A stretch of 44,206 bases of DNA, taken from assembly GCA_003141675.1 (NCBI GenBank), contig PLND01000046.1, positions 26,625 through 70,830 of the forward strand. Direction: 5' to 3'. The notes beneath the pieces were generated by a model, which saw nothing but the letters and a program-made list of their open reading frames with translations, ran no database searches and was not told where the DNA came from. Made by a program: the position numbers and the translations under genes. How positions within the stretch are numbered: the first letter of the stretch is position 1; each line of letters begins with the position of its first letter. Shown here one piece after another: positions 14,624 through 42,969 of this stretch. This stretch comes from Anaerolineae bacterium. Its GTDB lineage: Bacteria > Chloroflexota > Anaerolineae > Anaerolineales > RBG-16-64-43.

Positions 14624-14770
14624 CGCGGATTTTTCGGATAAGACGGATTTCACGGAATAAACAAATCTAAAAAATATATTAAGTATTGATTTTCAGCGCT
14701 TGCCCTCGCGCCTGCCCTCGCGCCCGCTCTCGCGAAGCGGGGGAAGCGGGGGAAATCAGATAAATCCGCG
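14624..14770. repeat. Composite intergenic repeat module, copy 1
   Basis: Begins ACGCGGATTTTTCGGAT (14624) and ends AAATCCGCG (14762-14770), so the outer ends are inverted. Inside is a G+C block, CCCTCGCG-type units followed by CGCGAAGCGGGGGAAGCGGGGGAA (14700-14754). The same order (ACGCGGATTT...AACAAATCT, spacer, CCTCGCG/GCGGGGGAA block, AATCAG-x-x-AATCCGCG) is found at 22311-22582. The rest of the gap to 14853 is plain A+T-rich sequence. Confidence 0.75.
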
Positions 14771-18429: not shown

Positions 18430-19233
18430 ATGGCCGATCCACTGCGCAAGATTGAAATTCAGCTCGAGAATCTCTTCGAAAAGAGAACCGGCACCCTGTC
18501 CGCTCAGTCGATGCACACCGGGAAGATCCTCGCACGCCTGATCGAAACGCTCGAGGAAAGCGCCCGGCCGGGGCCCGATGGACGCTGGATTGCCCCGAAC
18601 GTTTTCCACTTGGCGCTGGGGAAGCGAATCTCGCAGAGCGCATCTTCCATTCCGGACCTGAAGGTTCTGCTGACGGCCAAGGTGGAGGAACACATCAGAC
18701 AGAGCGAGATGATTTTGCTCCATCCAATCCGGATCGAATGGGAAACCGATCTTTCCCTGCGCGAGGAAAGCATCCGCGCCAATGCGGAAATTTTTCGTTC
18801 CGGCGAGGAAAGCACGGATGCCTTTCCCCCCGAGCCCCATCCGGCCATCACGCTGCCGCGCGGCGCGTTTCTCATCGTCAACGGGCGGCGCCACGTTGCG
18901 CTCAACCGGCCGGTGATTAACATCGGCCGCCAACTCGACAATCACCTGGTGCTGGACGACACACTGGTCAGCCGCCGGCACGCGCAGTTGCGGGCGCGCG
19001 AGGGACAGTATCTGCTCACCGACCTGGGATCCAAACACGGGATCCGGGTGAACAACATCACCGTCCACGAGTGGGTGCTGCAACCCGGGGATGTGTTCCG
19101 CCTGGGCAACACCGAACTCATCTACGGCGACGACCGCGAGGAAAGCATCACCCAGCCGATCCGGCCGGAGAATACGCCCGCCGCCCCGCCCGATCACCCC
19201 GCCCCCGCCGGAGAGGAAGGAACGCCCGGATGA
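18430..19233 (+). CDS. fhaA: FhaA-like protein (DUF3662 and FHA domains)
   Basis: A 267-residue cytoplasmic protein. Residues 1-120 match the DUF3662/FhaA N-terminal domain (PLRKIEIQLENLFEK, then ALGKRISQSASSIPDLKVLL). A linker follows, then an FHA domain at about 155-235 with INIGRQLDNHLVLDDTLVSRRHAQL and DLGSKHGIRVNN, the phosphothreonine-binding loops. In Mycobacterium FhaA reads Ser/Thr kinase signals and regulates peptidoglycan synthesis. GGAGAGG before the ATG gives a strong start. It overlaps fhaB by 4 nt. No Ser/Thr kinase or phosphatase is present in the window, unlike the actinobacterial cluster. Confidence 0.9.
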   Translation: MADPLRKIEIQLENLFEKRTGTLSAQSMHTGKILARLIETLEESARPGPDGRWIAPNVFHLALGKRISQSASSIPDLKVLLTAKVEEHIRQSEMILLHPIRIEWETDLSLREESIRANAEIFRSGEESTDAFPPEPHPAITLPRGAFLIVNGRRHVALNRPVINIGRQLDNHLVLDDTLVSRRHAQLRAREGQYLLTDLGSKHGIRVNNITVHEWVLQPGDVFRLGNTELIYGDDREESITQPIRPENTPAAPPDHPAPAGEEGTPG

Positions 19234-19706
19234 GCGCGTCAATCCTGATGCTCTCGGCCCGCATCGCGCTCGCCGTTTGTCTGTATGCATTCCTGTCGCT
19301 GATCCTGATCGTCCTTTGGCGCGATCTGCGCGCGGCGCAATCCTTCGGCACCGTCCGGGGTCGGCGTCCGGTCCTGCAAAGGATTCGCGCTGACGGCACG
19401 CCGTCCCAAGAGTTTTCCCTCTCGAAGGATTCGTGCTTGATCGGACGATCCTCCGGCATGGAGATTCCTCTCGCCGACGAGACCGTATCCGCGGTGCACG
19501 CCCGGGTCTGGAAGGAAGGCGACCGTTGGTGGCTGGAGGATCTCGACTCCCGCAACGGAACGTTTCTCAACCAAATTCCGATGGCTAAAAGCGCGGTCCT
19601 ATGCTCGGGTGACCGGATCCGTATCGGCCGCATCCTGCTGGAGTTCCGCGCCGGGGAATCCGCAACGGTCCCCAACCCTCCGCCTTCCGCGGAACCGCCC
19701 GCATGA
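19230..19706 (+). CDS. fhaB: FhaB-like membrane-anchored FHA protein
   Basis: A 158-residue protein with one N-terminal membrane helix (ARIALAVCLYAFLSLILIVLW, 10-30) and a cytoplasmic FHA domain at about 65-140: CLIGRSSGMEIPLADETVSAVHARV and DLDSRNGTFLNQ keep the Arg, Ser and Asn residues that bind phosphothreonine. Actinobacterial FhaB (FipA) links kinase signalling to cell division. The start overlaps the fhaA stop and its stop overlaps the next start (both ATGA), so all three proteins should be made in fixed ratio. Confidence 0.9.
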   Translation: MSASILMLSARIALAVCLYAFLSLILIVLWRDLRAAQSFGTVRGRRPVLQRIRADGTPSQEFSLSKDSCLIGRSSGMEIPLADETVSAVHARVWKEGDRWWLEDLDSRNGTFLNQIPMAKSAVLCSGDRIRIGRILLEFRAGESATVPNPPPSAEPPA

Positions 19707-22237
19707 ATGATCGCTCGCGTTTGGAAGCGATACTGCTGGGGCTTGGATTCGCCTTCCAGGCCTTTAACGCCGCAGCGCTGCTGCTGGCTCCGTCGGTACA
19801 GGACGGCCGCTGGAATTTCCAGTCGGCGTATCTGGTGGCGTTTATTCCACTTGCGGTTTGGGGAGCGGCGGCCTGGATCGTCCATTGGCAGCTTGATCGG
19901 ACGCTCCCCGGCCGCGATCCCTTCCTCTTCCCCACGGCGATGTTCTTGTGCGGATGGGGGGTGCAAATCCTCGCGCGGTTATCGCCGTACACAGCGCTCC
20001 GTCAAACACTGTGGCTGGCGGTCGCCGCAACCGCGGTCATCGTCATCCTGCATCTCCCCCACGATCTGGAATGGCTGAGAAAATACCGCTACCTGTGGCT
20101 GGGTGCGGCTCTGATTGCGCTGGCCGCCACACTTTTCATCGGCGTAGGTGCCGAGCCGGGGTCGGCACGGTTGTGGCTTGGATTGGATGGAATCTTTTTC
20201 CAACCCTCGGAATTCCTGCGCTGGGTGTTGCCCGTTTTTGCCGCATTCACGCTCTCGCCCGGTAAAGACTCCTCCGAGGCCCCCCGCCCGAGGGCTGCGC
20301 TCCCGGTGGTTCTCTTCGGCGCGGCGGGGGTCGGGCTGCACCTCCTCCAGCAAGACCTGGGCGCGGCAGTCCTGCTGATCACCGCGATCGTCATTCTGCT
20401 TTATCTGGCCTACCGCAAACCGATCATTCCGATATTGGGCATTTTGCTGACCGCTTCCTTGCTGGGCGCCGGGTACGCCGTCGACGCCACCGTACGAATG
20501 CGGTTGGCCACCTGGTGGAATCCGTGGGCGGATCCGTCCAACACTTCGTATCAGGTGGTGCAATCGCTGATCTCAGTAGCCGCCGGAGGCTTGATCGGCC
20601 GCGGGCCCGGATTGGGCGCGCCGGCGCTGGTTCCGGTGGCGTATTCCGATTTTCTGTTCACCGCTCTGAGCGAAGAATACGGCGTGGTGGGCGCGGTGGG
20701 GTGCCTGATTGCGATCGCCATCCTCGTGATGCGCGGATTTCATGCGGCGCTGCGCTCCCCTCGTAGCGCCGGCCGGCTGATCGCCGGATGCCTGAGTGCA
20801 CTGCTGGGGATCCAATCCATCGTCATCATCGGGGGCGTTCTCCGCCTGCTCCCCCTCACCGGCGTCACCCTGCCCTTCATGAGCTACGGCGGCTCCTCGC
20901 TCCTGGCCAGCATGATCGTGCTGGGATTGCTGCTGGTCCTTTCGGTGCCCGCGCCGGATTGTGCGCGCGATGTTTCCGCGGATCGACCGATGCAGACGAT
21001 GGCCGCCGTGCTCATTCTGGCGTTCGCCGCAGCCGGGATTTCCTTGGGATGGTGGGGTATTTACCGCGCGTCCGCGCTCCGCGAACGAACCGACAACTAC
21101 CGGCGCGTGTTGCACGACCGCCAGGCGCGGCGCGGAAATCTCTACGACCGCAACGGCGAGCCGCTCGCGCTGACCGCCGGTGCGCCGGGAAGTTACACGC
21201 GCCAGTACCCCGACCCGGCGGCCGCCCCGGTCGTCGGCTACACCACAGCCTATTACGGTCAGGGCGGGATGGAATCCGTTCTCGATCCGTGGCTTCGCGG
21301 TGAGGCGGCACGCAATTCCCTCGACATCTGGTGGTCGGAAACGGTTCTGGGCGTTCCGGCCGAAGGCGTGGATGCATATCTCACCGTTGACCGTACCCTG
21401 CTGGATTCCGGAAGCGCCTGGATGGGCGGGCAAGCCGGCGCGATCGTCGCGATGCATGCCGGAAGCGGGGAAATCCTTGCGCTCGTCTCGATGCCCACGT
21501 ACAATCCGGCAACACTCGCACAAAACTGGGACAAGATCCTCAGCCAGCCACTCTCGCCCCTTCTCAACCGCGCCACCCAGGGTTTGTATCCGCCGGGACA
21601 AATGCTTTACCCGTTCCTCGCGGCGGAAGCCATCAACCGCGGATGGCTCGGAAGCGGTTCCGATCTATGTACAGCGCCCTTCTCCGATTGGATCCTCGCC
21701 CATCCCGATTTTCCGAATCAGGTTTTCTCCGCGTTCCGCTTCAATGCCGACCCGGTGATGGATTTGCCGACGGTCTACGCCCTCTCGCCGGCCTTTCCGG
21801 CGGATGCGGGCGGCGTTGCGCGGGAATTGGAGGGAGAGGGAAAGATTCTTATCAGCCCGATCCAGCTGGCCGTCGCCCTCGCGTCCATCGCGGACGGCGG
21901 GATGGCGCCCGCGCCGCGGTTGGTCTTGCGATTGGATTCACCCTCCGGATGGATCACGCCGGCGGTTCCCGGCCGGTCGGCGGCGATGATCCCGGCCGAT
22001 ACCGCCGCGCGTGTGAGGAATATGCTCGCACAATTTAACGGGGCCGGCAATCCGGCGGCATTGGAATGGACCGGCTGCGGCGGTGGTGCGGAAACCAACT
22101 CGGATGTTTCCTGGTATGCCGGGCTGCAAACGGGGACGGCCGATCCGATCGTGGTGGTCGCAGTGATGGAAGGACAACCGTCCAGCGCAGCGGATATCGG
22201 CCGGAAGGTTCTGGCCAAGGTGTTGGCCGCGGAATAA
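19703..22237 (+). CDS. Fused SEDS polymerase (RodA/FtsW) and PbpA-type penicillin-binding protein, transpeptidase motifs lost
   Basis: One 844-residue frame. Residues 1-415 are a SEDS glycosyltransferase with about ten membrane helices. Kept motifs are SYQVVQSLISVAAGGLIGRG, YSDFLF with the conserved Asp (D316), SEEYG and the PFMSYGGSS block (391-399). Residues 430-450 form a further helix, and 460-844 follow the PbpA family (RRGNLYDRNGEPLA, then GAIVAMHAGSGEILALVSMPTYNP and LLNRATQGLYPPG). The catalytic SxxK after YPPG is QMLY, so Ser is Gln633 and Lys is Tyr636; KTG is WTG (789-791). The transpeptidase therefore looks dead and may only scaffold or activate the SEDS half. It is the third gene of an overlapping fhaA-fhaB operon, matching the mycobacterial fhaA-fhaB-...-rodA-pbpA order. 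Confidence 0.9.
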   Translation: MNDRSRLEAILLGLGFAFQAFNAAALLLAPSVQDGRWNFQSAYLVAFIPLAVWGAAAWIVHWQLDRTLPGRDPFLFPTAMFLCGWGVQILARLSPYTALRQTLWLAVAATAVIVILHLPHDLEWLRKYRYLWLGAALIALAATLFIGVGAEPGSARLWLGLDGIFFQPSEFLRWVLPVFAAFTLSPGKDSSEAPRPRAALPVVLFGAAGVGLHLLQQDLGAAVLLITAIVILLYLAYRKPIIPILGILLTASLLGAGYAVDATVRMRLATWWNPWADPSNTSYQVVQSLISVAAGGLIGRGPGLGAPALVPVAYSDFLFTALSEEYGVVGAVGCLIAIAILVMRGFHAALRSPRSAGRLIAGCLSALLGIQSIVIIGGVLRLLPLTGVTLPFMSYGGSSLLASMIVLGLLLVLSVPAPDCARDVSADRPMQTMAAVLILAFAAAGISLGWWGIYRASALRERTDNYRRVLHDRQARRGNLYDRNGEPLALTAGAPGSYTRQYPDPAAAPVVGYTTAYYGQGGMESVLDPWLRGEAARNSLDIWWSETVLGVPAEGVDAYLTVDRTLLDSGSAWMGGQAGAIVAMHAGSGEILALVSMPTYNPATLAQNWDKILSQPLSPLLNRATQGLYPPGQMLYPFLAAEAINRGWLGSGSDLCTAPFSDWILAHPDFPNQVFSAFRFNADPVMDLPTVYALSPAFPADAGGVARELEGEGKILISPIQLAVALASIADGGMAPAPRLVLRLDSPSGWITPAVPGRSAAMIPADTAARVRNMLAQFNGAGNPAALEWTGCGGGAETNSDVSWYAGLQTGTADPIVVVAVMEGQPSSAADIGRKVLAKVLAAE

Positions 22238-22310: not shown

Positions 22311-22582
22311 ACGCGGATTTATCGGATGAAACGAGTCCCGCGGATCGAACAAATCTCATAATGAATTCCTCAATGATTTATCCCGCTTTCGCGGGATGAG
22401 TAATCCCCCGCCCTTTGCGGCGCGAGAACTTGGGGGTTGCGCTCTGTGATAACGCGGCTTTCCGCGCGGTGGTTCATTCTCCGCGCAGGCTCTCCCGCCC
22501 TCGCGCTTGCCCTCGCGCCTGCCCTCGCGAAGCGGGGGAAGCGGGGGAAGCGGGGGCGGCGGGGAATCAGTTGAATCCGCGG
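22311..22582. repeat. Composite intergenic repeat module, copy 2
   Basis: Starts ACGCGGATTTATCGGAT and ends AATCCGCGG, with inside it the small palindrome TCCCGC-TTTC-GCGGGA (22381-22396) and a G+C block of CCCTCGCG units and GCGGGGGAA units (22498-22562). Layout matches the module at 14624-14770, here enlarged by an insertion. The remaining 22238-22687 sequence holds a TATAAT at 22270-22275 with no gene close behind it, and no coding region. Confidence 0.75.
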
Positions 22583-23612: not shown

Positions 23613-24134
23613 TTATTGCTTTTTGTTGCGCCTACCTTTTAATTCGTCAAACTCCACCAGTGTCCGCGGTCCGCGGCGGTGCGCTTCCCACAGCGCGGAG
23701 GAGGCGCGGGAGAGCATTTCGTCGGCGGTAATCTCGTCGCCGCCCGGGTGGAATGCCACCCCGGCACAGATGGATACACCGAATTCTTTCAGTTCCCGGG
23801 TCACCCGTTTGCCATGGAACTCTTCGACTAACCGCTGAGCCGCCTTGCGCGCTCCTCCGGCGTCGGATTCCGGCATGACGATCAGATAATTCCCTTGATA
23901 ATATCCGGGCATATCCACTTCGCGCAGCCCCGTAAGGAGGATATTGGTCAGGTAGGAATGCGCACTCTCCATGATTTCCGGCGAAGGGCTTTCGACAAAG
24001 CACAAGCCGATGTAGAGCAGCGCGATGGGGCTGGGATACCGTCTGGCCCGAAGGAGCTCGCCGTCCAAGAGCGACTCCAGCATCTTCTGGGGATAGAGCC
24101 CGGATTTTGCGTCGAGTCGAGCTTCTTGTTCCAT
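23613..24134 (-). CDS. Degenerate GGDEF-domain protein, paralog 1
   Basis: A 173-residue protein consisting of one GGDEF-fold domain: DAKSGLYPQKMLESLLDGEL at the start, ARRYPSPIALLYIGL as the first core strand, and GVSICAGVAFHPGGDEITADEMLSRAS at the end. At the signature site the alignment is YQGNY instead of GGDEF, so diguanylate cyclase activity is not expected; it may bind nucleotide or act as a partner. The start at 24134 has GAGGTG directly upstream; a longer frame to 24197 lacks one. It is a paralog of the gene at 24220-24732, with near-identical layout. Confidence 0.78.
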   Translation of the reverse strand: MEQEARLDAKSGLYPQKMLESLLDGELLRARRYPSPIALLYIGLCFVESPSPEIMESAHSYLTNILLTGLREVDMPGYYQGNYLIVMPESDAGGARKAAQRLVEEFHGKRVTRELKEFGVSICAGVAFHPGGDEITADEMLSRASSALWEAHRRGPRTLVEFDELKGRRNKKQ

Positions 24135-24219
24135 ACCCACCTCTATTCCGTTTTCCACCGCTCTCAACCACGCCCAAGCCACTCTATTTAATCCCAAAAC
24201 CCGATTCTCCGCAATCTGG

Positions 24220-24732
24220 TCAAACGGTCTTTTTGAACGTCTCCCCGTACACCACCAGGCTTTTGGGTCCGCGCTTTTGCGCTTCCCACAGCGCGGAGGA
24301 AGCGTTGGATAGGAGCTGGGCGGCCGAGATGTCCGGTCCGCCTTTATGCGATTCCACTCCGATGCACAGCGACAGGTTAAACAATTCCGCAGTGCGTGTG
24401 ATCTGCGAACGGGGGAAGTTTTCGAGCATGCGTTGGGCGGCCATCCTGGCGCCGTCGCTTTCTGTGGCGGGCATGATCACCAGATAGTTGCCCTCGAAAA
24501 GGCCCGGCAGATCCGCCTCGCGCATGGCCGCTTGGAGGTGATTGGCGATCAGAATTTGCGCGCTCTCGACGATTTCCTGGGAAGGATCCCTGGGAAACCG
24601 CAATGCGAAATAAAGGAGCGAGATCGGGCTGGGATACCGGCGCGAACGGGCTACTTCATGTGCCAGAAGAGTCTCGAGCATGGCCTGCGGGAATAAACCG
24701 GACGATGCGTCGATACGCTTTTGTTGTTCCAT
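24220..24732 (-). CDS. Degenerate GGDEF-domain protein, paralog 2
   Basis: A 170-residue protein closely parallel to its downstream neighbour: ASSGLFPQAMLETLLAHEVARSRRYPSPISLLYFAL, then ADLPGLFEGNYLVIMPAT, where FEGNY replaces GGDEF, and LSNASSALWEAQKRGP near the end. Both paralogs keep the fold but not the catalytic Asp/Glu pair. The start at 24732 has AAGGGGA 5 nt upstream; a second ATG five codons earlier (24747) overlaps that site. The pair stands downstream of tyrS on the same strand, separated from it by a repeat. Confidence 0.78.
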   Translation of the reverse strand: MEQQKRIDASSGLFPQAMLETLLAHEVARSRRYPSPISLLYFALRFPRDPSQEIVESAQILIANHLQAAMREADLPGLFEGNYLVIMPATESDGARMAAQRMLENFPRSQITRTAELFNLSLCIGVESHKGGPDISAAQLLSNASSALWEAQKRGPKSLVVYGETFKKTV

Positions 24733-24756
24733 GGATCCCCTTTCCAATGGATGTTC

Positions 24757-24823
24757 CCGCCCCCGCTTCCCCCGCTTCCCCCGCTTCGCGAGGGCGGGCG
24801 CGGGGGCAAGCGCGAGGACAGGC
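24757..24823. repeat. G+C repeat block, inverted copy
   Basis: CCCCCGCTTCC units followed by CGCGAGGGCGGGCGCGGGGGCAAGCGCGAGG, the reverse orientation of the inner block of the modules at 14624 and 22311. It fills the gap between tyrS and the GGDEF paralogs and lacks the ACGCGGATTT/AATCCGCG ends. Confidence 0.75.
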
Positions 24824-26242: not shown

Positions 26243-27307
26243 TTGCGCAATCCCGTTCAATGGCTGCTTAGTCTCGTTACGTTGGACATCAGCATAGATC
26301 TCGGAACAGCCAACACGCTGGTCAACGTCTTTGGGAAAGGCATTGTCATTAACGAACCTTCCTGGGTGGCCGTTGACAAGAAAACCCGCCGGGTCCTCAA
26401 AGTCGGCCGGGCGGCAAAGGAGATCATCGGCCGGACGCCGCCCAACGTCGTCACCCTGCGCCCCATCCGCGACGGCGTGATTTCCGAGTTCGACGCGACG
26501 GCCACCATGCTGGAGTATTTCATCCGCCGGGTGATCAACCAGAGCGTGGTGCCGGTACCCCTCACCCGGGTGATCGTCGGCGTTCCCGTGGGAGCCACCA
26601 GCGTGGAACGCCGGGCGGTGGTGGATGCAGCCCAGTCGGCGGGGGCGCGCGAGGCGTTGCTGGTGGAGGAACCGGTCGCTTCGGCGCTTGGCGCCGGACT
26701 TCCCATCCGCGGGGTCCACAGCACGATGCTGATGGACATCGGCGGGGGCACCACCGAGATCGCAGTCTTCGCCGCGCGCAAGATCGTGATCTCGAATTCG
26801 ATCCGCGTGGCGGGCGACGAGATGGACGAGAACGTCGTCACCTACCTGCGGGATAAATACAATCTGCTCGTCGGCCAGACAATGGCGGAAACGGCCAAGA
26901 AGACGGTCGGCGCCGCGGCCCCCTTGGGCGAAGAGAAAGTGATGACCGTGCGCGGGCGCAACCTGATCTCCGGATTGCCGGAGGAAGTGGAAATCTCCTC
27001 GATTGAAATGCGCGAAGCGCTGGCTCCTTCGTTGAAGGCGATCTCCCAGGCTTTGAGGGACCTCCTCGAGCAGGCTCCACCGGAGGTCATGGCCGACCTG
27101 CTGGATTCCGGGCTGTGCCTGACGGGCGGCGGATCCCTGTTGAACGGGTTGCCGGAAAAACTCGGCGAGGAATTCCATATTCGCGTATGGCGGGCCGACG
27201 ACCCGCTAACCTGCGTCGTGCGCGGCGCGGCGGCCATTCTGGCCGGCATGGACGATCATCGCGAGTTCCTCGCCTCCCCCGAACGGGATCATCGCGGCCG
27301 CCGGTAA
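26243..27307 (+). CDS. mreB: Rod-shape determining actin MreB
   Basis: A 354-residue bacterial actin that forms membrane-attached filaments guiding lateral wall growth. Phosphate-1 loop IDLGTANTLV (18-27), MDIGGGTTEIAV near 165 (phosphate 2) and CLTGGGSLLNGLPEKL near 290 (adenosine loop) are clear. The start codon is TTG, chosen because AGGAG stands 7 nt upstream and the protein then has the short hydrophobic N-terminus (PVQWLLSLV) expected to bind membrane. It is the first gene of a long plus-strand array of shape and division genes. Confidence 0.96.
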   Translation: MRNPVQWLLSLVTLDISIDLGTANTLVNVFGKGIVINEPSWVAVDKKTRRVLKVGRAAKEIIGRTPPNVVTLRPIRDGVISEFDATATMLEYFIRRVINQSVVPVPLTRVIVGVPVGATSVERRAVVDAAQSAGAREALLVEEPVASALGAGLPIRGVHSTMLMDIGGGTTEIAVFAARKIVISNSIRVAGDEMDENVVTYLRDKYNLLVGQTMAETAKKTVGAAAPLGEEKVMTVRGRNLISGLPEEVEISSIEMREALAPSLKAISQALRDLLEQAPPEVMADLLDSGLCLTGGGSLLNGLPEKLGEEFHIRVWRADDPLTCVVRGAAAILAGMDDHREFLASPERDHRGRR

Positions 27308-27339
27308 ACCCTCCGGCCCATTCCTTCCCTTGACGAATT

Positions 27340-28185
27340 ATGTTTAATCCCAGAAGACGTTTTTTCCTGATTGCTCTTGCTCTGCTGTTGGCGGCGGTCG
27401 GACTGGTCGTCCTCGGTCAGGTAGGCATCATCCAACCGGTGCAGGATCTGGCGCTGCGCGGCGTAAGCGGCGCGCAGCACACAATTTCCACCACGTTTTT
27501 CAACGTCCGTGATTTCATCACCGCCCCGCGCAACCTGCAGGAACTGATCCAGCGCAACAACCAGTTGGAGGCCCAGGTGGCCCAGCTCGAAGCGGAATTG
27601 GTCACCCTGCAGGAACAGGCCTCGGAAGCCGACGCCCTCCGCGCGCTGCTTGGCGCCGCCCGGCAGCAGCCGGAGAACCGCTACCTCGTGGCGCAGGTGA
27701 TCGGCCGGGACACCAACCCCTTCCTGCATTACCTGATCCTCGACGAGGGATCCGACGCCGGGGTCCGCCGCGGAATGCCGGTGGTCAATGAAAAAGGGCT
27801 GGTGGGCAGGGTCACCGAGGTGAGCTCCACGGCCTCCAAGGTGCAGCTGATCATCGATCCGAATTCGGTCATCAACGCGCGGATCCAGACCAGCCGGGCG
27901 GAGGGAGTGCTCGTGGGCCAGTCGACGGGCGGCCTGCAGATGATCTATATTCCGCAGAACGTCACAGTGACCACGGGCGATCTCGTCGTCACCTCCGGGC
28001 TGGGAGGAGGATTTCCGCCGGAGATTCTGATCGGGCGTGTGATCAGCGTTCACAAACGAGATTACGAACTGTATCAGACCGCCGTCATCGAACCGCGCAA
28101 CGACTTCACCAGCCTGGAAATGGTCCTGATCATCACCAATTTCGAGCCGGTGCAAATCGGCCCGCTGCAAGGGACAACCTCCTAA
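27340..28185 (+). CDS. mreC: Rod-shape determining protein MreC
   Basis: A 281-residue bitopic protein: a membrane helix at about 8-30 (FFLIALALLLAAVGLVVLG), a coiled coil at about 65-105 (NNQLEAQVAQLEAELVTLQEQ), and the periplasmic beta-domain pair with GRDTNPFLHYLILDEGSDAGVRRGMPVVN and VVTSGLGGGFPPEILIGRV. MreC links MreB filaments to PBP2 and activates it. 32 bp after mreB, 10 bp before mreD. Confidence 0.95.
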   Translation: MFNPRRRFFLIALALLLAAVGLVVLGQVGIIQPVQDLALRGVSGAQHTISTTFFNVRDFITAPRNLQELIQRNNQLEAQVAQLEAELVTLQEQASEADALRALLGAARQQPENRYLVAQVIGRDTNPFLHYLILDEGSDAGVRRGMPVVNEKGLVGRVTEVSSTASKVQLIIDPNSVINARIQTSRAEGVLVGQSTGGLQMIYIPQNVTVTTGDLVVTSGLGGGFPPEILIGRVISVHKRDYELYQTAVIEPRNDFTSLEMVLIITNFEPVQIGPLQGTTS

Positions 28186-28195
28186 AGCTGCCGCG

Positions 28196-28699
28196 ATGAT
28201 CTGGTTTTTATCCATCCCACTCCTGGCGCTGCTGGCTTTGCTGCAAACCACAATCTTCCGTCAGATCCTCTTCCTGGACGGAAGCCTCGATCTGTTGCTC
28301 GTGGCGGTTATTTGCTGGAGCATGCTGCGCCCGGAGGAAGGACTGGTCTGGGCTTTGCTGGGTGGAATATTCGCAGACATTTTTTCCGGCGGCCCGTTCG
28401 GTATCACTGCCATCGCCTGCCTCCTGGTGGCGATCTGCATCGGAGCGTTGCACGGCCGCCTTTGGACCCGCAGTCCGATAGCGGTGATGGCGATCGCGAT
28501 GTTCGGGACCGTCATCGCCCATCTGGCGTCCGTCGCCCTGCTCGTGTTTTTTGGCCATCCTCTCGAGGTTGGATACCTCCTCGCTTATGTCACGCTGCCT
28601 ACCGCGTTTCTTAATACCATCGCCTCGGTTCCCGTCTATCTCGCCCTGCGCCGGCTGCATTTCGTCGGAGCTCCGGTTCTTGCGGAGGAGGAAGCATGA
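28196..28699 (+). CDS. mreD: Rod-shape determining protein MreD
   Basis: A 167-residue membrane protein with about five helices and the MreD pattern LLQTTIFRQ at the N-terminus, then PEEGLVWALLGGIFADIFSGGPFGITAIA, which is the most conserved block. Partner of MreC in the elongation complex. The stop overlaps the mrdA start by 4 nt. Confidence 0.92.
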   Translation: MIWFLSIPLLALLALLQTTIFRQILFLDGSLDLLLVAVICWSMLRPEEGLVWALLGGIFADIFSGGPFGITAIACLLVAICIGALHGRLWTRSPIAVMAIAMFGTVIAHLASVALLVFFGHPLEVGYLLAYVTLPTAFLNTIASVPVYLALRRLHFVGAPVLAEEEA

Positions 28700-30735
28700 A
28701 AACCGCCTTCACGGATAACCGGGTCACCCCGCATCGCATCCGGATCTTCCTCGGAGCGATGATCGTCCTGTTCGCGATTTTCGCCGCGCGCCTGTTCTTC
28801 CTCCAGGTGATCCTTGGCAAATACTACCTGGCGCTGGCTGAAACCAACCGCACCCAGGTGATCAGCCTGCCCTCCTCGCGGGGCGTGATCTACGATCGCA
28901 ACGGAGTGATCCTGGCGCGCAACGTGCCTTCCTATAACATCACCATCACCCCCGCCGATCTTCCCGACGACACGGGCGGCGTGCAGGCCATCTACCGGAC
29001 GCTCTCGGATCTGACCGGCGTCCCGATCACCGTCCCGGGCTCGCGCCCGTCCCAGGAATGCGCGCCCGGCCGCGGAATCGAGGATCTGGTCAACGAGTGG
29101 ATCGAACTCGCGCCGTATTACGCGGTGAAGATCCAGTGCGACGCCGACCCGGCCACGGCCCAGATCATCCAGGAAAAATCCGCCGATATGCCGGGGGTCG
29201 GTGTATCGGTCTCGTCGGTTCGGGATTATCCCAACGGCCGCTTCACCGCGGACGTCATCGGATATATGGGACGTGTTCCGCCGGACCTTTCGGAAAAATA
29301 CCAAGCCCTCGGGTACAACCTCGACCAGGATAAAATCGGCTATGCGGGCATCGAACTCTCCTCGCAGGATATCCTGGCGGGAACCTACGGCAGCGAAAAG
29401 GTCGAGGTGGACGCCGCCGGAAAGATCATCCGGTTGCTGGAACCGCCGACCGAACCGGTTGCCGGCAAAAACATTCAATTGACGATCGATTCGCGGCTGC
29501 AGGAAGCGGCGACCATCATTCTGGAAAATAAAATCGCGGAGACGCGGGCGAACAAACCGCCCGCCCAGCGCAGCCCGATGATCACCGGCGTGGTGATCGC
29601 CATGAATCCGCAAACGGGCGAAATCCTGGCGATGGTGTCGGTGCCGACCTACGACAATGAGAAGTTTTCACGCTACATCCCGCTGGATTATTACAATTCG
29701 CTTGCGTCCGACATCAGCAGCCCGATGCTCAACCACGCCATCTCCGGGACGTACTCCCCGGGGTCGATCTTCAAACTGGCGACAGCGGTCGGGGCGCTCA
29801 ACGAAAACATCGTCACCCCCGAGACGCAGATCATCTGCAACGGGTCGATTTCCATCCTGCAAAAGTTTTATCCCGGCGATCCGGGCACGCCGATGCTCTT
29901 TTACTGCTACCAGCGCAGCGGCCACGGGGTGGTCAATTTTCTCTATGGGCTCTCCCAATCCTGCGACGTGTATTTCTACAACCTGGGCGGCGGCTTTCCG
30001 GGCGGTCCGGTGCCCGAGCCGGGTCTGGGGATCGATGAAATCAAACGCTACGCCGATGCACTCGGGTACGAACAACTCCTGCTGGGAGGCCAGCTCCCCG
30101 GCGAAGTCAGCGGCCTGGTCCCGGATGAAACCTGGAAACGGATCCATAAGGGGGAGAACTGGGCTACCGGGGATACCTACATCTCCACCATCGGCCAGGG
30201 CTATGTGGAAGTAACCCCGCTGCAGGTGCTCGAATCCATCGCCACCATCGGCAACGGCGGGAAGCTGATCAAACCCATATTGCTGAAAGAATATCTCGAC
30301 GGGGAAGGCAACGTCACCCAGACGTTTCCGCCGCAGGTGATATACAACCTGGCCGACACTGCAATCACTCCCAACACGAACGATATCCTCGTGCAACCAT
30401 GGGTCCTGCAAGAGGTGCAGCTGGGGATGCGCTTGGTGGTCACGCAGGGAACCGCGTCCGCGTATGCGCAAATCGACAATATTCCTTCCGCCGGAAAAAC
30501 GGGTACGGCGGAATACTGCGACGACATCGCCCAATCGCGCAATATGTGCCAACGCGATGCATGGCCGACGCACGCCTGGTACGGCGCCTACGCTCCCCCC
30601 GACAATCCGGAAATCGCCGTTCTGGCATTCGTGTACGACGGCGGGGAAGGCTCGGTGACCGCCGGGCCGATCGTCCGGGATGTGCTCAAGGCGTATTATC
30701 AATTGAAGGCCAACGACGCGCAGCGGACCGGCTAA
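28696..30735 (+). CDS. mrdA: Penicillin-binding protein 2 (elongation transpeptidase)
   Basis: A 679-residue class B PBP with one N-terminal helix (about 16-40), a pedestal domain starting SSRGVIYDRNGVILARNVP, and the transpeptidase domain. All catalytic motifs are intact: S357-I-F-K360 in YSPGSIFK, S422-C-D in SQSCDVYFY, and K601-T-G. It cross-links peptidoglycan with RodA during side-wall growth. There is an extra loop with several Cys (QECAPGRG near 115, EYCDD and RNMC near 607-619) that could form disulfides outside the cell. It contrasts with the fused PBP at 19703-22237, in which these motifs are gone. Confidence 0.95.
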   Translation: MKTAFTDNRVTPHRIRIFLGAMIVLFAIFAARLFFLQVILGKYYLALAETNRTQVISLPSSRGVIYDRNGVILARNVPSYNITITPADLPDDTGGVQAIYRTLSDLTGVPITVPGSRPSQECAPGRGIEDLVNEWIELAPYYAVKIQCDADPATAQIIQEKSADMPGVGVSVSSVRDYPNGRFTADVIGYMGRVPPDLSEKYQALGYNLDQDKIGYAGIELSSQDILAGTYGSEKVEVDAAGKIIRLLEPPTEPVAGKNIQLTIDSRLQEAATIILENKIAETRANKPPAQRSPMITGVVIAMNPQTGEILAMVSVPTYDNEKFSRYIPLDYYNSLASDISSPMLNHAISGTYSPGSIFKLATAVGALNENIVTPETQIICNGSISILQKFYPGDPGTPMLFYCYQRSGHGVVNFLYGLSQSCDVYFYNLGGGFPGGPVPEPGLGIDEIKRYADALGYEQLLLGGQLPGEVSGLVPDETWKRIHKGENWATGDTYISTIGQGYVEVTPLQVLESIATIGNGGKLIKPILLKEYLDGEGNVTQTFPPQVIYNLADTAITPNTNDILVQPWVLQEVQLGMRLVVTQGTASAYAQIDNIPSAGKTGTAEYCDDIAQSRNMCQRDAWPTHAWYGAYAPPDNPEIAVLAFVYDGGEGSVTAGPIVRDVLKAYYQLKANDAQRTG

Positions 30736-30743
30736 CTTCCGCA

Positions 30744-30752
30744 TGCTATAAT
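30744..30752 (+). promoter_or_regulatory. Extended -10 promoter TGC-TATAAT for minC
   Basis: TGCTATAAT in the short gap between mrdA and minC, about 36 nt before the minC ATG. No -35 match. It would allow min genes to be expressed apart from the mre genes. Confidence 0.55.
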
Positions 30753-30787
30753 TGTTGAAGGAGCATTCCGGGATCCAACGAATCGCC

Positions 30788-31480
30788 ATGCCCGTTGAGG
30801 TTAATGTCAAGGGGATTCACGAAGGCCTCCTGATCAGCTTCGGAGAAGGGAGCTGGGAGGAAGCGTTCCCTTCGCTGCTGAGCCATCTGGATTCCAAACC
30901 CGATTTCTTTCTCGGCGCAAACGCCATCATGCAGCTCGGGGCGTTTCCCCTTCAGGCGGCCGACCTGGCGCGGCTGCGCAGCGCCCTGGCGGACCGCGGG
31001 ATGGGACTGCGGACGGTGCTTTCGCAATCCCCCGTGACTGTCAGTGCCGCGAAGAATCTGGGATTGGAAGTTGCGCTTCCCGTCCGTGAAGCGAGAGAAA
31101 CCCCGCTCGATACCGAACTCACCGGATCCGATGCGATCCTGCTGCATCAAACCCTTCGGTCCGGAAACAGCGTCCACTTTCCCGGGCACGTAACGATCCT
31201 GGGTGACGTCAACCCCGGAGCCGAGATTGTGGCCGGAGGGAGCGTCTTCGTGTGGGGGCATTTGCGGGGAACGGTGCACGCGGGGGCGGAAGGCGACGAC
31301 CGTTCGGTCGTATGCGCCCTGGATTTGAGCCCGATGCAGCTGCGGATCGCGGGATACGTGGCCACTTCGCCGCCCCGCAGCGGGAGCAGCCGCCCGGAAA
31401 TCGCATCGCTGCGCAACGGCCAACTGGTGGCGGAAACCTGGAACCCCAAGGAAAAACCTCCCGCACTCACCGGAGGATGA
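30788..31480 (+). CDS. minC: Septum site-determining protein MinC
   Basis: A 230-residue MinC. The N-terminal domain (about 1-100) inhibits FtsZ; the C-terminal domain (about 110-210) is the right-handed beta-helix with GHVTILGDVNPGAEIVAGGSVFVWGHLRGTVHAGAEGD, the face that binds MinD. The start at 30788 begins with PVEVNVKGIHEGL as expected; a longer frame would start inside the promoter. No strong ribosome site is seen. 43 bp before minD. Confidence 0.93.
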   Translation: MPVEVNVKGIHEGLLISFGEGSWEEAFPSLLSHLDSKPDFFLGANAIMQLGAFPLQAADLARLRSALADRGMGLRTVLSQSPVTVSAAKNLGLEVALPVREARETPLDTELTGSDAILLHQTLRSGNSVHFPGHVTILGDVNPGAEIVAGGSVFVWGHLRGTVHAGAEGDDRSVVCALDLSPMQLRIAGYVATSPPRSGSSRPEIASLRNGQLVAETWNPKEKPPALTGG

Positions 31481-31523
31481 GCTCGCGAGGGATCGGAAGA
31501 TAATTCGCTGTTAAGGAGCGGGA

Positions 31524-32330
31524 ATGACGGCAAAGGTGATGACGGTTACATCGGGGAAAGGCGGCGTGGGCAAAACCACCGCCACGGCCAACATCGGCGT
31601 CGCCCTGGCGCTGATCGGGCAGAAGGTGGTTTGCATCGACAGCGACATCGGATTGCGCAATCTCGATGTGGTCATGGGGCTGGAAAACCGCATCGTCTAC
31701 GACCTGGTCGATGTAGTGGAAGGCCGCGCGCGGCTGCGCCAGGCGATGATCAAGGACAAACGGCTCCCCGAGCTGTATCTCATTCCCGCCGCGCAGACCC
31801 GCGATAAAACCGCCATCTCCCCGAGCGACATGGTGCGCATCTGCGACGAGCTGCGTCCGGAGGTCGACTGGATCCTGATCGACTCGCCGGCCGGGATCGA
31901 GCGCGGATTCCGCAACGCCATCGCCGCGTCGGATACGGCGATCATCGTCACCAACCCCGAAGTCTCCGCCGTGCGTGACGCCGACCGGATCATTGGGCTG
32001 CTCGAGGCCGAGGAGAAAGGCCCCGGCAAACTGGTGATCAACCGGATCAAACCGGAGCTGGTCGAACGGGGCGACATGCTGGCCACTGCCGATATCCTGG
32101 AAATTCTGGCCGTGGATTTGCTCGGCCTGATTCCGGAGGATGAATCGGTGCTCATCTCCACTAACCGCGGAAATCCCGCCGCGCTGGATCCGAAAAGCAA
32201 GGCCGGCCAAGCCTTCCGCGACATCGCCGGACGGCTGATGGGGGAGCCCGTTCCTTTTCCGTCGCTGGATGGAACAGACTCCCTGCGGAAGCGTCTGGCG
32301 CGGCTGATGCGCCGGGGAGGCGAATCATGA
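31524..32330 (+). CDS. minD: Septum site-determining ATPase MinD
   Basis: A 268-residue deviant Walker ATPase: SGKGGVGKTT (10-19) with the signature Lys, DSDIGLRNLDVVMGLENRIVYDLVDV, and DWILIDSPAGIERGF as Walker B. The C-terminus (SLRKRLARLMRR) is an amphipathic membrane-targeting helix. ATP-bound MinD recruits MinC to the membrane and is released by MinE. AAGGAG lies a few bases before the ATG. Stop overlaps minE start by 4 nt. Confidence 0.96.
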   Translation: MTAKVMTVTSGKGGVGKTTATANIGVALALIGQKVVCIDSDIGLRNLDVVMGLENRIVYDLVDVVEGRARLRQAMIKDKRLPELYLIPAAQTRDKTAISPSDMVRICDELRPEVDWILIDSPAGIERGFRNAIAASDTAIIVTNPEVSAVRDADRIIGLLEAEEKGPGKLVINRIKPELVERGDMLATADILEILAVDLLGLIPEDESVLISTNRGNPAALDPKSKAGQAFRDIAGRLMGEPVPFPSLDGTDSLRKRLARLMRRGGES

Positions 32331-32602
32331 GCGGCCTGTGGGATCGCCTGACCGGACAAGCGGAGCGCTCCAGCGCCAGGACGGCCAAGGAACGGCTGAT
32401 CGTCGTCCTGAGCCACGACCGGAGCGACATCGAACCCGGCATTCTCGAAAAAATCAAGAATGATATCGTTCGCGTGATCTCCGAACATATCGACGTGGAT
32501 CCCTCGACGGTCCAGATTCATATTTTCTCGGAAGGCCGGGAGCAGCATCTTAAAGCCGACATTCCCCTGCCCGGCCCCGCGCGTCGAAAGCGCAACCTCT
32601 AA
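32327..32602 (+). CDS. minE: Cell division topological specificity factor MinE
   Basis: A 91-residue MinE. AKERLIVVLSHDR is the anti-MinCD helix/strand that stimulates MinD ATPase; IKNDIVRVISEHIDVDPSTVQIHI is the dimerising topological domain. A basic tail (ARRKRN) follows. Presence of MinE with MinC and MinD points to pole-to-pole oscillation rather than a DivIVA-based system. Confidence 0.94.
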   Translation: MSGLWDRLTGQAERSSARTAKERLIVVLSHDRSDIEPGILEKIKNDIVRVISEHIDVDPSTVQIHIFSEGREQHLKADIPLPGPARRKRNL

Positions 32603-32611
32603 GAGACCCCC

Positions 32612-33712
32612 GTGTTTGACTGGCGACGTTGGCGGCATTTTGATTTCTGGCTGTTGGGAAGCGCCGCCCTGCTGACGATCTTCGGCATCGTGATGATCCG
32701 CTCGGCGGTGGCCGACAACGCCACGCTCGCCGACACGGCGCAGCGCCAGGCGTTGTTCGCCCTGATCGGCCTTGGCATCCTGCTTCTGGCCACCGTCATC
32801 GATTACCATTTCTGGCGCGGACTTACGCGGATCCTCTTTGTCGGCGTCATTCTGCTGCTGCTGTACGTGGAACTGGTGGGCGCCAAGACCTTCGGCGCCA
32901 CGCGCTGGATCCACATCGGATCGTTCACTCTCCAGCCTTCGGAGGTGGCCAAGGTAACGCTGATTCTGATTCTGGCCGACGACATCGCGCGCAACGAAGA
33001 CCGGTTGCAATCCTGGGCCGGCATCCTGCGCACCCTGATCATCGCCGCCATTCCCGTGGTGGTCATTTTGCGGGAACCGGATCTGAGCACCGCCATTCTC
33101 GTCATGGCGCTGTGGGCGGCCATGGCGTTCGCCGCCGGAATGCCCCCGAAATATTTCCTCTTCATCGGCGGCGCAGTAATCGTGGGAGTGATGGTAGCAC
33201 TCGCCTTCAACCTGGTGGCAGCCTATCAGATGCACCGGCTGGCCCTTTTTCTGTTCCCCGAGTCGGATCCCGGCGCCGCTTACAACATCGAACAATCGCT
33301 GATCGCCATCGGATCGGGCAGCGTTCTCGGCCAAGGGTATGGACTAAGCACCCAGGTGCAGTTGCGCTTCCTTAAGGTGCGCCAGACCGATTTCATCTTC
33401 TCGGTCCTGACCAGCGAGTTCGGCTTCGTCGGTGCGATTGTTTTTTTCGTCATCCTCGGGTTTGTCGTCTGGCGCTGCCTGCAGGCGGCGCGCAACGCAC
33501 GGGATACCTACGGGGCGCTGATTGGATACGGCGTGGCCACGTTGATTTTTTATCAGGCGGCGTTTAATATCGGAATGAATCTCAATTTGCTGCCGGTCGC
33601 CGGGCTGCCGCTGCCGTTCATCAGCTCCGGGGGCAGTTCGCTGTGGTCGGTGCTGCTCGGGATCGGGCTGGTGGAAAGCACCATCCTGTACCGGAAGGAA
33701 ATGGAATTCTGA
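32612..33712 (+). CDS. rodA: Rod-shape determining SEDS polymerase RodA
   Basis: A 366-residue integral membrane glycosyltransferase with ten predicted helices. Motifs: ARNEDRLQSWAGIL region, AYNIEQSLIAIGSGSVLGQGYGLSTQ, QTDFIFSVLTSEFGFVGA with the conserved Asp (D260), and PFISSGGSSLWSVL. It polymerises peptidoglycan strands with PBP2. The GTG start at 32612 gives the usual FDWRRWRHFDFWLL beginning; the ribosome site is weak. The cognate PBP2 is mrdA, four genes upstream. Confidence 0.94.
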   Translation: MFDWRRWRHFDFWLLGSAALLTIFGIVMIRSAVADNATLADTAQRQALFALIGLGILLLATVIDYHFWRGLTRILFVGVILLLLYVELVGAKTFGATRWIHIGSFTLQPSEVAKVTLILILADDIARNEDRLQSWAGILRTLIIAAIPVVVILREPDLSTAILVMALWAAMAFAAGMPPKYFLFIGGAVIVGVMVALAFNLVAAYQMHRLALFLFPESDPGAAYNIEQSLIAIGSGSVLGQGYGLSTQVQLRFLKVRQTDFIFSVLTSEFGFVGAIVFFVILGFVVWRCLQAARNARDTYGALIGYGVATLIFYQAAFNIGMNLNLLPVAGLPLPFISSGGSSLWSVLLGIGLVESTILYRKEMEF

Positions 33713-33713
33713 G

Positions 33714-35201
33714 ATGACGGAGCCTGTCTGCGTCCGGTTTGCCCCCTCGCCCACCGGTCACATGCACATCGGAAGCGCCCGCACGGCGCTTTACGATTAT
33801 CTCCTCGCGCGGAAGACGGGCGGCCGGTTCATCCTCCGCATCGAAGATACCGACCAAAAGCGGTTGATCCCCGGCGCGGAACAGGAAATCATCGACGGCC
33901 TGCACTGGCTCGGGTTGGATTGGGACGAAGGTCCGGATAAAGGCGGCCCGCATGGGCCTTACCGGCAGTCGCTGGCCAAGGAAATATATCTTGAGCACGC
34001 CAGACAATTGATTGCAAACGATCGCGCTTATCCGTGCTTCTGCACTTCCGAGCGGTTGGCCGCGTTACGGGAATCCCAACGCCAGCGCAAGGAAAATCCG
34101 CGGTACGACGGCACGTGCCGCAATCTTCCGCCTTCGGAAGCCGCGCGCCGGATGGCGGCCGGTGAGACGCACGTTATCCGGTTTAAAACTCCGAAGGAAG
34201 GCAGCACCGCGGCCGTCGATCTGCTGCGCGGGGAGATCCGCGTGGAGAACGGAACGCTCGACGATTTCATCCTGGTGAAATCGGACGGGTTGGCGCTTTA
34301 CCATCTGGCGGCGATGGTTGACGACAACCGCATGGGGGTCACCCACGTTCTACGCGGCGCAGAGTGGCTTTCCACCCTGCCACTCCACGCGCTGGTCGTG
34401 CGCGCTTTCGGCTGGCGCGAGCCGGTCTGGTGCCACCTCTCGGTCTTCCTCAAGCCTTCTGGCAAAGGGAAGATGAGCAAACGCGACAGCGCGCAAACGG
34501 CGACCGAAGGCCACAGCATTTTCATCCGCGATCTGAGGGAGGAGGGTTACCTCCCCGAAGCGATCGTCAATTGGATCGCGCTGATGGGAGCCTCCTTCGA
34601 CGAGACGGAAGACGTGTTCAGCCTGGAAGAATTGGTCCGGCGCTTCGACCTGAAGCACCTGAATCCCTCGCCGGCCGCGATCAGTTATGAAAAGGCGGAT
34701 CACTTCAACGGAACCCACATCCGTTTGCTTTCGGTGGAAGATCTTACCGCCCTGTTGAAGCCGGTTTTTGAAAAGGCCGGGTACGCGGCCGATGGGGAAC
34801 GGCTGCGCAAGGTGGCCGCGGCAGTGCAAGTGCGCATTGTCACGCTCGACGACGCCGTCGCGATGGGCGGTTTTTTCTTCCACGACGAGGTCCATCCCGA
34901 AGCACACGACCTGGTCGGCAAGGGTCTTACTACCGCGCAATCGGCGGATGCGCTGCGCGCCGCGCGCGAGCTTCTCGCCGCGGAGCCGGAATTCGAATCC
35001 GCAAAGGATGAAGCAGCGCTGCGTGCCCTGGCGGAGCGCCTGGGATACAAACCGGGCGTTCTCTTCGGGATGATGCGCGCTGCGATCACCGGCCAAACCG
35101 TCAGCCCGCCGCTCTTTGCCAGTATGGAGATCATCGGCCGGAAGACATATCTAGCGCGGCTCGAAGCGGCGGAAGAGCTATTACGAAAGATGGTGGGTTG
35201 A
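33714..35201 (+). CDS. gltX: Glutamyl-tRNA synthetase
   Basis: A 495-residue class I GluRS. HIGH-like motif HIGS (18-21) in PSPTGHMHIGSART and KMSKR (253-257). CFC and C135 (TCRNLPP) lie in the region that forms a zinc site in some GluRS. The C-terminal anticodon-binding domain is full length. It begins 2 bp after the rodA stop, so it is probably cotranscribed with the shape genes. A separate GlnRS is encoded at 41278-42969, so this enzyme is expected to charge only tRNA-Glu. Confidence 0.95.
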   Translation: MTEPVCVRFAPSPTGHMHIGSARTALYDYLLARKTGGRFILRIEDTDQKRLIPGAEQEIIDGLHWLGLDWDEGPDKGGPHGPYRQSLAKEIYLEHARQLIANDRAYPCFCTSERLAALRESQRQRKENPRYDGTCRNLPPSEAARRMAAGETHVIRFKTPKEGSTAAVDLLRGEIRVENGTLDDFILVKSDGLALYHLAAMVDDNRMGVTHVLRGAEWLSTLPLHALVVRAFGWREPVWCHLSVFLKPSGKGKMSKRDSAQTATEGHSIFIRDLREEGYLPEAIVNWIALMGASFDETEDVFSLEELVRRFDLKHLNPSPAAISYEKADHFNGTHIRLLSVEDLTALLKPVFEKAGYAADGERLRKVAAAVQVRIVTLDDAVAMGGFFFHDEVHPEAHDLVGKGLTTAQSADALRAARELLAAEPEFESAKDEAALRALAERLGYKPGVLFGMMRAAITGQTVSPPLFASMEIIGRKTYLARLEAAEELLRKMVG

Positions 35202-41184: not shown

Positions 41185-41282
41185 CTTAGCGCAACGGCGT
41201 AGAGGCGCAAAGAAAATCCTCTCACGCTGAGGATAGTTATTGGATTTCTTGCGTTTCAGCGCCTTTGCGCCATTGCGTTAAG
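41185..41282. repeat. Imperfect palindrome reaching into the glnS stop codon
   Basis: CTTAGCGCAACGGCGTAGAGGCGC...AAGAAAATC (41185-41218) is mirrored by GATTTCTTGCG...GCGCCTTTGCGCCATTGCGTTAAG (41243-41282). The right arm contains the TAA of glnS (41278-41280). The GCGCAAAGGCGC type is another widespread dispersed repeat. It may form the 3' end of the glnS message. Confidence 0.75.
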
Positions 41283-42969
41283 CCTTTCCATCTTTCTTCG
41301 CCCCTTTCTCGATCTTCGCCCAAGTATCCCGCAGCGTCACCGTCCGGTTGAACACTGGTTTTCCGGGTTGGCCGTCCGGGTCGGCGCAAAAATATCCGTT
41401 GCGTTCGAATTGGAATTTATCGCCCGGCCGGACATCCGCCAGCAATGGCTCGAGCATGCAGCCGGAAAGCACCTCGAGCGAGTTGGGATTGATCACCTGA
41501 TCGATGCCTTCCCCCTCGTCCGGTTGCTCGGCGGTGAACAGCTGCTCGTAAAGCCGGACTTCCGCCTTTACGGCGTGCCGCGCCGAGACCCAATGGATGG
41601 TGGATTTGACCTTGCGTCCGTCGGGCGCGTCACCGCCGCACGTCGCCGGATCGTAGGTGCAGTGGACCTCGGTTGCCACTCCTGTGGCCGGATCTTTGAC
41701 CACGCCGGTGCACTTGACGAAGTAGGCATACCGCAACCGGACTTCGTTGCCCGGGAAAAGGCGGAAATATTTCGGCGGAGGCGTTTCGCGGAAGTCGTCC
41801 TGTTCGATGTAAAGCACCTTGGAGAAGGGGATCTTGCGCATTCCGGCGGAGGAATCTTCGGGGTTATTGACGGCTTCCATCTCCTCTACCCGGTCTTCAG
41901 GATAGTTGTCGATAACGAGTTTAATCGGCCGGAGCACCGCCATGCGCCGGAGGGAACGCAGGTTCAGGTCGTCGCGGATGTACGCTTCGAAAAGGGACAT
42001 GTCGACCCAGCTGTCGTTCTTGGTTTCGCCGACGGCGCGGACGAACTCCAGGATCGCTTCCGGGTTGACGCCGCGCCGGCGCAACCCGCGCAATGTGGTG
42101 AGCCGCGGATCGTCCCAGCCTTTCACGATGCCCGTCTCCACCAGCTTGCGCACTTTGCGTTTGCTCATCATCGCGTGGGTGAGGTTGAGGCGCGAAAACT
42201 CGATCTGGCGGGTCTTGAACTCGCCCAACTGCTCCAGGAACCATTCGTAAAGCGGCCGGTGGATTATGTATTCCTGCGAACACAGCGAGTGCGTGATCCC
42301 TTCCATCGAATCGTTCTGTCCGTGCGACCAATCGTACATCGGGTAAATATTCCACTTGTCTCCCGTGCGGTGATGAAGCGCGTGCAGGATGCGGTACATG
42401 ACCGGGTCGCGCATGACGATGTTGGGATGGGCCATGTCGATTTTGGCGCGCAGCACGCGGCTGCCTTCGGGGAACTCGCCTTTCTTCATCCGCTCCAGCA
42501 AATCCAGGTTCTCTTCCACCGGCCGACCGCGGAACGGGGAATTGCTGCCGGGCTCGGTCAGCGTTCCGCGCGTGGCGCTCACCTCGTCCGGGGACTGGTC
42601 GTCGACGTAAGCCAGCCCCTTTTTAACCAGGCGGACGGCCCACTCGTACAGCCGGTCGAAATAATCCGAAGCGTAAGTCTCTTTGGCCCACTGGATGCCC
42701 AACCACTTTGTATCTTCTTTGATCGCTTCGACGTATTCGGTCTCTTCCTTGGCGGGGTTGGTATCGTCGAAACGCAGATATAGTTCGCCGCCGTAGGCCT
42801 TGGCGGTGTTGTAGTCGATCCACCAGGCTTTGACGTGGCCGATATGCATGTAGCCGTTCGGTTCCGGCGGCAGGCGCGTGCGGACGTATTTGAAGCGACC
42901 CGATTTCAGGTCTTCGGCGACCGCGTCAAGGATGAATTGCCCGGCTTGCGGTTCGGTGGAAGTGGTCAT
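41278..42969 (-). CDS. glnS: Glutaminyl-tRNA synthetase
   Basis: A 563-residue class I Gln[17 protein letters not shown] contains HIGH (42-45); MSKR is at 268-271 (HAMMSKRKV). The catalytic domain is followed by the two-barrel anticodon-binding region ([12 protein letters not shown]-type end: [14 protein letters not shown]). [14 protein letters not shown] and [22 protein letters not shown] are GlnRS-specific blocks that separate it from GluRS. The gene for its tRNA lies 250 bp away on the other strand. Many bacteria instead use GluRS plus amidotransferase, so a GlnRS in this lineage is worth noting. Confidence 0.96.

Follow-up and report, generated by a model that had tools for sequence, protein, structure and literature searches.

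SEDS polymerases are activated by their class B penicillin-binding proteins (bPBPs) through a transmembrane (TM) contact and a contact between the pedestal and ECL4, and division goes on when PBP2B of B. subtilis or PBP1 of S. aureus is catalytically inactive (PMC8078798). E. coli RodA is stimulated by the TM helix of PBP2 alone (PMC10449877). In an assay with crosslinking blocked, interface I of PBP2 activates and interface II inhibits (PMC10257715). Examples of SEDS-PBP fusions exist (PMC10449877). Natural fusions of this kind are thus already known, as is, from mutants, the dispensability of bPBP catalysis. In the open-access literature, we found no report of a naturally dead bPBP partner of a SEDS protein that is fixed across a clade.

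The closest described systems resemble the fusion analysed here in different respects. Actinobacterial RodA-PbpA (M. tuberculosis PBPA, 3un7) has the same PbpA-type pedestal and fold, with FhaA and FhaB encoded upstream, but consists of two separate genes, and its PbpA is an active penicillin-binding transpeptidase. Live SEDS-PBP fusions of Coriobacteriia and Lachnospiraceae share the domain order in one chain and the fold; unlike the present fusion, they keep SxxK and KTG. The solved ectodomains of Atopobium parvulum (4jbf and 4n1x, residues 522-948) and Eggerthella lenta (4mnr) are probably of this live-fusion kind; according to the PDB entry titles, that of A. parvulum was solved with several β-lactams. 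RodA-PBP2 and FtsW-FtsI (E. coli, T. thermophilus) likewise combine a SEDS protein with a bPBP that has the TM and pedestal contact parts, but their bPBP is catalytic, whereas the one described here lacks all three motifs. The PBP2B and PBP1 mutants were made in the laboratory from active enzymes, whereas here the dead state is natural and clade-fixed.

Domain organisation and predicted structure

The window, a stretch of 44,206 nucleotides from an Anaerolineae bacterium, encodes the fusion in a single ORF (19703..22237, + strand; 844 aa) with an ATG start and zero internal stops. The original prediction of one uninterrupted frame of 844 codons joining a SEDS part to a PbpA-type part is borne out, since the ORF is intact and Pfam finds both parts. 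The SEDS glycosyltransferase domain (residues 1-420; 19703..20962, +) matches FTSW_RODA_SPOVE (PF01098) at residues 96-414 with an E-value of 4e-65. It is followed by a PBP-type TM helix (residues 428-454; 20984..21064, +), seen as a helix in the AlphaFold model, and by a PbpA-type pedestal of the PBP_dimer_2 family at about residues 470-556 (21110..21370, +; PF21922, E-value 2e-8, match 477-544). The remainder (residues 557-844; 21371..22234, +) is a transpeptidase-fold domain without catalytic motifs, assigned from its best Foldseek and VIA matches; the Pfam Transpeptidase family matches in two separate pieces only.

The AlphaFold model, built from an alignment of 29 relatives, has a mean pLDDT of 88.8 and a pTM of 0.83. 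The SEDS part of the model aligns with P. aeruginosa FtsW (8bh1_A) with a VIA-align Z of 36 over residues 71-421, and two N-terminal helices precede the aligned part. The best structural matches of the predicted ectodomain, with both Foldseek and VIA, are M. tuberculosis PBPA and PBPs of Coriobacteria; with PBPA (3un7), the superposition gives Z 40.3 and an rmsd of 2.8 Å over 360 residues. These matches point to a complete SEDS-bPBP fold in the predicted model, from which transpeptidase chemistry alone is missing. The claim of a full PbpA-type domain stands for the fold; the loss of SxN, which that claim left unsaid, was also found. The protein has the PF01098 domain, the SEDS fold and the catalytic Asp in extracellular loop 4 of a SEDS protein, together with the TM helix, pedestal and transpeptidase fold of a class B PBP (PbpA type), and none of SxxK, SxN and KTG. 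The fitting name is therefore SEDS / pseudo-bPBP fusion rather than penicillin-binding protein.

Loss of the transpeptidase motifs

In the SEDS domain, D316 (20648..20650, +), the conserved catalytic-type Asp that the original prediction gave as kept, lies in a motif common to the fusion and T. thermophilus RodA (HTDFVFSVWAEEWG / YSDFLFTALSEEYG). In the transpeptidase-fold domain, the SxxK position reads QMLY (21599..21610, +), with Q633 and Y636 in place of Ser and Lys, and the KTG position reads WTG (residues 789-791; 22067..22075, +) in a strand EWTG; both substitutions are those originally claimed.

The motifs were compared across 76 aligned fusions, of which 61 are dead and 15 live. All of them have D316 (61/61 dead, 15/15 live). 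E324, D218, E170, Q371 and S399 are, like D316, invariant in the 61 dead fusions, and E325, which with E324 belongs to the active-site loop (E324-E325; 20672..20677, +), is kept in 59/61. Both residues of the SxxK pair, Ser and Lys, occur in 15/15 live fusions, whereas none of the 61 dead ones has the two together. Positions 633 and 636 vary freely among the dead fusions, so there is no replacement nucleophile. In the dead clade SxN is replaced by xCP or deleted, and KTG is replaced by unrelated letters or deleted. Some dead proteins among the class-level loci look intermediate (SCN to ACP, KTGT to HLGT).

A working SxxK is absent from about 118 relatives of one lineage and present in about 65 others, which belong to Actinobacteria, Clostridia, other Chloroflexota and early-branching members of the same class. 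Counting the SEDS-linked PBP parts of relatives, of the phylum and of named genomes, 75 lack the SxxK pair (one of them, L043, ends at a contig edge and is uninformative) and 59 have it. At class level, 44 of 50 loci are dead and six are live. Homologs that keep SxxK, SxN and KTG would have refuted the original prediction; instead, relatives throughout the order and in the greater part of the class have lost these motifs. Because it is found throughout the whole clade, the shared dead state is far beyond chance, and local decay or a sequencing error is ruled out.

Regional conservation and selection

Among the dead fusions, mean pairwise identity is 0.50 for the SEDS domain, 0.48 for the pedestal and 0.50 for the N-terminal transpeptidase sheet; the helical lobe (0.25) and the C-terminal part of the transpeptidase (0.31) score lower. 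The corresponding values for live fusions are 0.44, 0.39, 0.45, 0.35 and 0.40. The NRAxQGxYPPG stretch ahead of the lost Ser is conserved. The lobe, which bears SxN, is wholly deleted in several families (f7, f11 and part of f14); in an AlphaFold model of a lobe-deleted protein, the sheet is kept and the SxxK helix is predicted to shorten from 14 to about five residues. What the clade retains are the SEDS-contact parts and the rigid sheet; what it has lost are the catalytic parts.

By the Nei-Gojobori method, dN/dS is below 1 in all regions including the dead part, although dS is high in many pairs and the values are rough; the dead part is thus still under selection. In nearly all dead pairs, dN/dS of the C-terminal part of the transpeptidase exceeds that of the SEDS domain. 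The ratio of the two omegas ranges from about 1 to 9 in dead pairs; for live pairs, of which three were compared, the range is about 1.2 to 1.8. The faster evolution of the C-terminal part is compatible with partial relaxation.

In family f12, three proteins (L175 of G015, L176 of G353 and L177 of G028) consist of the SEDS domain and a C-terminal hydrophobic helix and have no ectodomain. For L176 and L177 this helix can be aligned with the TM helix of the PBP; for L175 the match is weaker. The glutamates matching E324/E325 are lost in L176 and L177, that is, in two of the three truncated genomes. Ectodomain loss therefore goes together with SEDS decay in f12, in a small sample of three genomes. 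In 14 of the 18 genomes of the family there is no match to the gene at the threshold used.

Distribution and evolution of the module

Among 61 genomes of the order, the organism's own included, 31 carry the fusion and eight carry two adjacent separate genes; three others of the 61 retain a SEDS gene whose PBP part is short or absent. The module is missing from several near-complete relatives (for example, G041) and is thus not essential throughout the order. A plasmid search returned distant homologs only. One genome, G037 (assembly 78% complete), has a dead split pair (L035) and also a SEDS-PBP fusion in which SxxK and SDN are intact (L048:1457-4231, on contig C441; 25-34% identity); this second gene may be a paralog, may have been transferred or may lie on a stray contig.

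The SEDS tree comprises 79 rows; it and the other trees are quick searches without bootstrap. Within the class, all dead proteins group in a single clade with an SH-aLRT of 94 (96 after one long row was dropped), and the branches immediately below this clade are unfused, live pairs from the same class. This nesting suggests that inactivation was probably a single event and occurred in separate genes. Fusion is rejected as the cause of inactivation, because dead pairs also occur as split genes and the dead clade is preceded in the tree by split pairs that are live. On this tree, inactivation appears to have come first, and fusion seems not to be an essential feature of the module. Inside the dead clade at least seven changes between fused and split states are seen, and the data reject one shared origin for the fused forms (p-AU 8.5e-10), which places several putative fusions and/or re-splits after the inactivation. 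One dead fusion from another class (L076) is not rejected as a member of the dead clade (p 0.26), and a second sampling preferred it there. The live fusions of Coriobacteriia and Lachnospiraceae arose separately; their place in other parts of the SEDS tree shows these fusions to be independent.

Genomic context

Directly upstream of the fusion lie genes for an FhaA-like protein (18430..19233, +; FhaA_N and FHA domains, PF12401 and PF00498) and an FhaB-like protein (19230..19706, +; N-terminal hydrophobic segment and FHA domain, PF00498, with the NCBIfam FhaB model below its cut-off). The frame of the FhaA-like protein is open from 18292, and MADPLRK was taken as its probable start. The FhaA stop overlaps the FhaB start (19230-19233), and the FhaB stop overlaps the ATG of the fusion (19703-19706), in both cases as ATGA. 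The overlaps suggest that the three genes may be translationally coupled. No structured RNA was found near the fusion gene, and promoter and terminator matches near it are no more than chance.

The full order FhaA-FhaB-MTAP-SEDS/PBP is present in 32 of the 52 relatives' loci that were examined for neighbours; several of the remaining loci are cut by a contig end, lack one gene or have SEDS/PBP apart from the FHA genes. MTAP here denotes a gene resembling S-methyl-5'-thioadenosine phosphorylase, found between FhaB and SEDS in most relatives (seen at L031, L044, L081-L093 and L180-L196); the window's own family is without it. FhaA_N occurs in 37 of 45 genomes with the module and in five of 16 without it (Fisher p 3.5e-4, relatedness ignored). 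The location of FhaA and FhaB beside SEDS/PBP genes recalls the FhaA/FhaB-RodA-PbpA-PknAB module of Actinobacteria; the PASTA-type Ser/Thr kinase of that module was not found here, as a search of the whole genome gave no match to the PASTA domain PF03793. The nine Pkinase matches in the genome are all on contigs other than that of the window. The proposal that the FHA proteins tune the fusion draws support from synteny and co-occurrence, although the PASTA kinase is missing.

The genome encodes two other SEDS proteins. One is the RodA of the window (32612-33712), which with PBP2 (28696-30735) forms the canonical pair already recognised there; the other, on contig C34, is taken to be FtsW. RodA and PBP2 belong to a cluster mreB-mreC-mreD-PBP2-minC-minD-rodA (26243-33712), with the min genes between PBP2 and RodA, and in the window's family this cluster lies near the FhaA/FhaB/fusion operon. 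Transpeptidase domains occur in five further proteins, namely PBP2, an FtsI-like protein, a class A PBP and a tandem pair of MecA_N class B PBPs with SxxK intact (G000:C86; L162 and L163). Class B PBPs with MecA_N are present in 60 of 61 related genomes, so a PBP2a-like architecture is the rule in the order, and correlation with these PBPs as the candidate crosslinker in trans is uninformative.

Elsewhere in the window, a G+C-rich repeat of ~55-66 nt occurs in three copies (14698-14754, 22494-22559 and 24757-24822) that are 91-94% alike, one being inverted relative to the others. Two adjacent small proteins (23613-24197 and 24220-24747, both −) resemble the GGDEF domain in its second half only and look like degenerate paralogs. 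A tRNA-Gln gene (43221-43294) is located near a glutaminyl/glutamyl-tRNA synthetase-type gene (41278-42969, −); a separate GltX is found at 33714-35201.

Discussion

The retention of the dead partner across the whole lineage suggests that it is a built-in activator rather than an enzyme. We think it likely that the fusion is an active third SEDS polymerase, with the pseudo-transpeptidase as its obligatory activator or scaffold and other PBPs as the crosslinking enzymes. Its presumed physiological role would be that of the cell's third SEDS glycan polymerase, beside FtsW/FtsI and RodA/PBP2, with a covalently attached class B PBP partner that has turned into a pseudo-transpeptidase. The TM helix of the pseudo-PBP (interface I) and its pedestal (interface II), the latter putatively facing the long extracellular loop of the SEDS domain, would together hold and switch the SEDS domain such that lipid II is polymerised. 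The pseudo-PBP would acylate neither stem peptide nor penicillin, so crosslinking of its strands would have to come from other transpeptidases, acting in trans: FtsI, PBP2, the MecA_N class B PBPs or the class A PBP. FhaA and FhaB plausibly carry cytoplasmic phospho-signals to the fusion. Division, spores or damage response, as put forward in the original prediction, are possible settings for it. The activator role put forward in the original prediction fits both the conservation pattern and the literature; as proposed here it is our inference, and the sensor role offered alongside it has to be weighed as well.

As a periplasmic sensor, the PBP part would bind stem peptides, lipid II or other wall ligands in the former substrate groove and gate the SEDS domain. 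The conserved transpeptidase α/β sheet and NRAxQGxYPPG stretch, the intact transpeptidase fold of the predicted model and the signalling suggested by the FHA proteins of the operon would all suit such a function. The would-be groove lobe, however, is the least conserved part of the protein and is deleted in several families, which speaks against a conserved binding groove, and the free variation of the Ser and Lys positions leaves no shared ligand site visible; we regard a sensor as unlikely. The same lobe deletions could instead reflect relaxed decay, the transpeptidase having once become dispensable and its remnant persisting through attachment to, or co-translation with, a useful SEDS protein. 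The higher dN/dS of the C-terminal part and the complete loss of the ectodomain in f12 agree with decay. It is difficult to reconcile with the pedestal and sheet kept by about 118 ORFs of one clade, with an omega well below 1 everywhere, with a pair that stays together through several changes between fused and split states, and with split genes that are retained although free to be lost. Decay therefore seems to us quite improbable as the whole account.

The two remaining alternatives concern the activity of the domains themselves. With FtsW/FtsI and RodA/PBP2 already in the genome, the SEDS domain might make another lipid-linked polymer, or act in transport or as a scaffold, rather than make peptidoglycan; to our knowledge, the envelope polymers of this Anaerolineae-type lineage are little studied. 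All tested SEDS residues nevertheless match those of active RodA/FtsW, and the live unfused relatives in the class adjoin a catalytically complete PbpA, which makes a different product very improbable. An active transpeptidase with a displaced nucleophile might be sought in the proteins that have a Ser at the old position (L028, L060, L067, L070-L072, L090 and L093), but these lack the Lys, no conserved Ser, Cys or Lys takes the place of SxxK, and SxN and KTG are lost too; residual transpeptidase activity is scarcely credible.

Going back to the preferred reading of an active polymerase with a dead activator, we lean, with some reserve, towards its stronger form: a dedicated SEDS polymerase of a class-wide lineage whose cognate bPBP is permanently non-catalytic, which is predicted to be blind to β-lactams and moenomycin, and whose strands would be crosslinked in trans. 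If true, nature would here have parted the allosteric function of a bPBP from its crosslinking function; whether a bPBP serves as crosslinking enzyme or as allosteric subunit has so far been asked with laboratory point mutants. In this lineage catalysis has been lost in evolution while the subunit has been retained, long enough for the dead state to span most of the families sampled in one bacterial class, and the class offers a natural series of live split, dead split, dead fused, lobe-deleted and TM-helix-only forms. This series could show, part by part, what a SEDS polymerase requires of its bPBP, and the ready-made fusion may be a polymerase that can be purified without a transpeptidase background.
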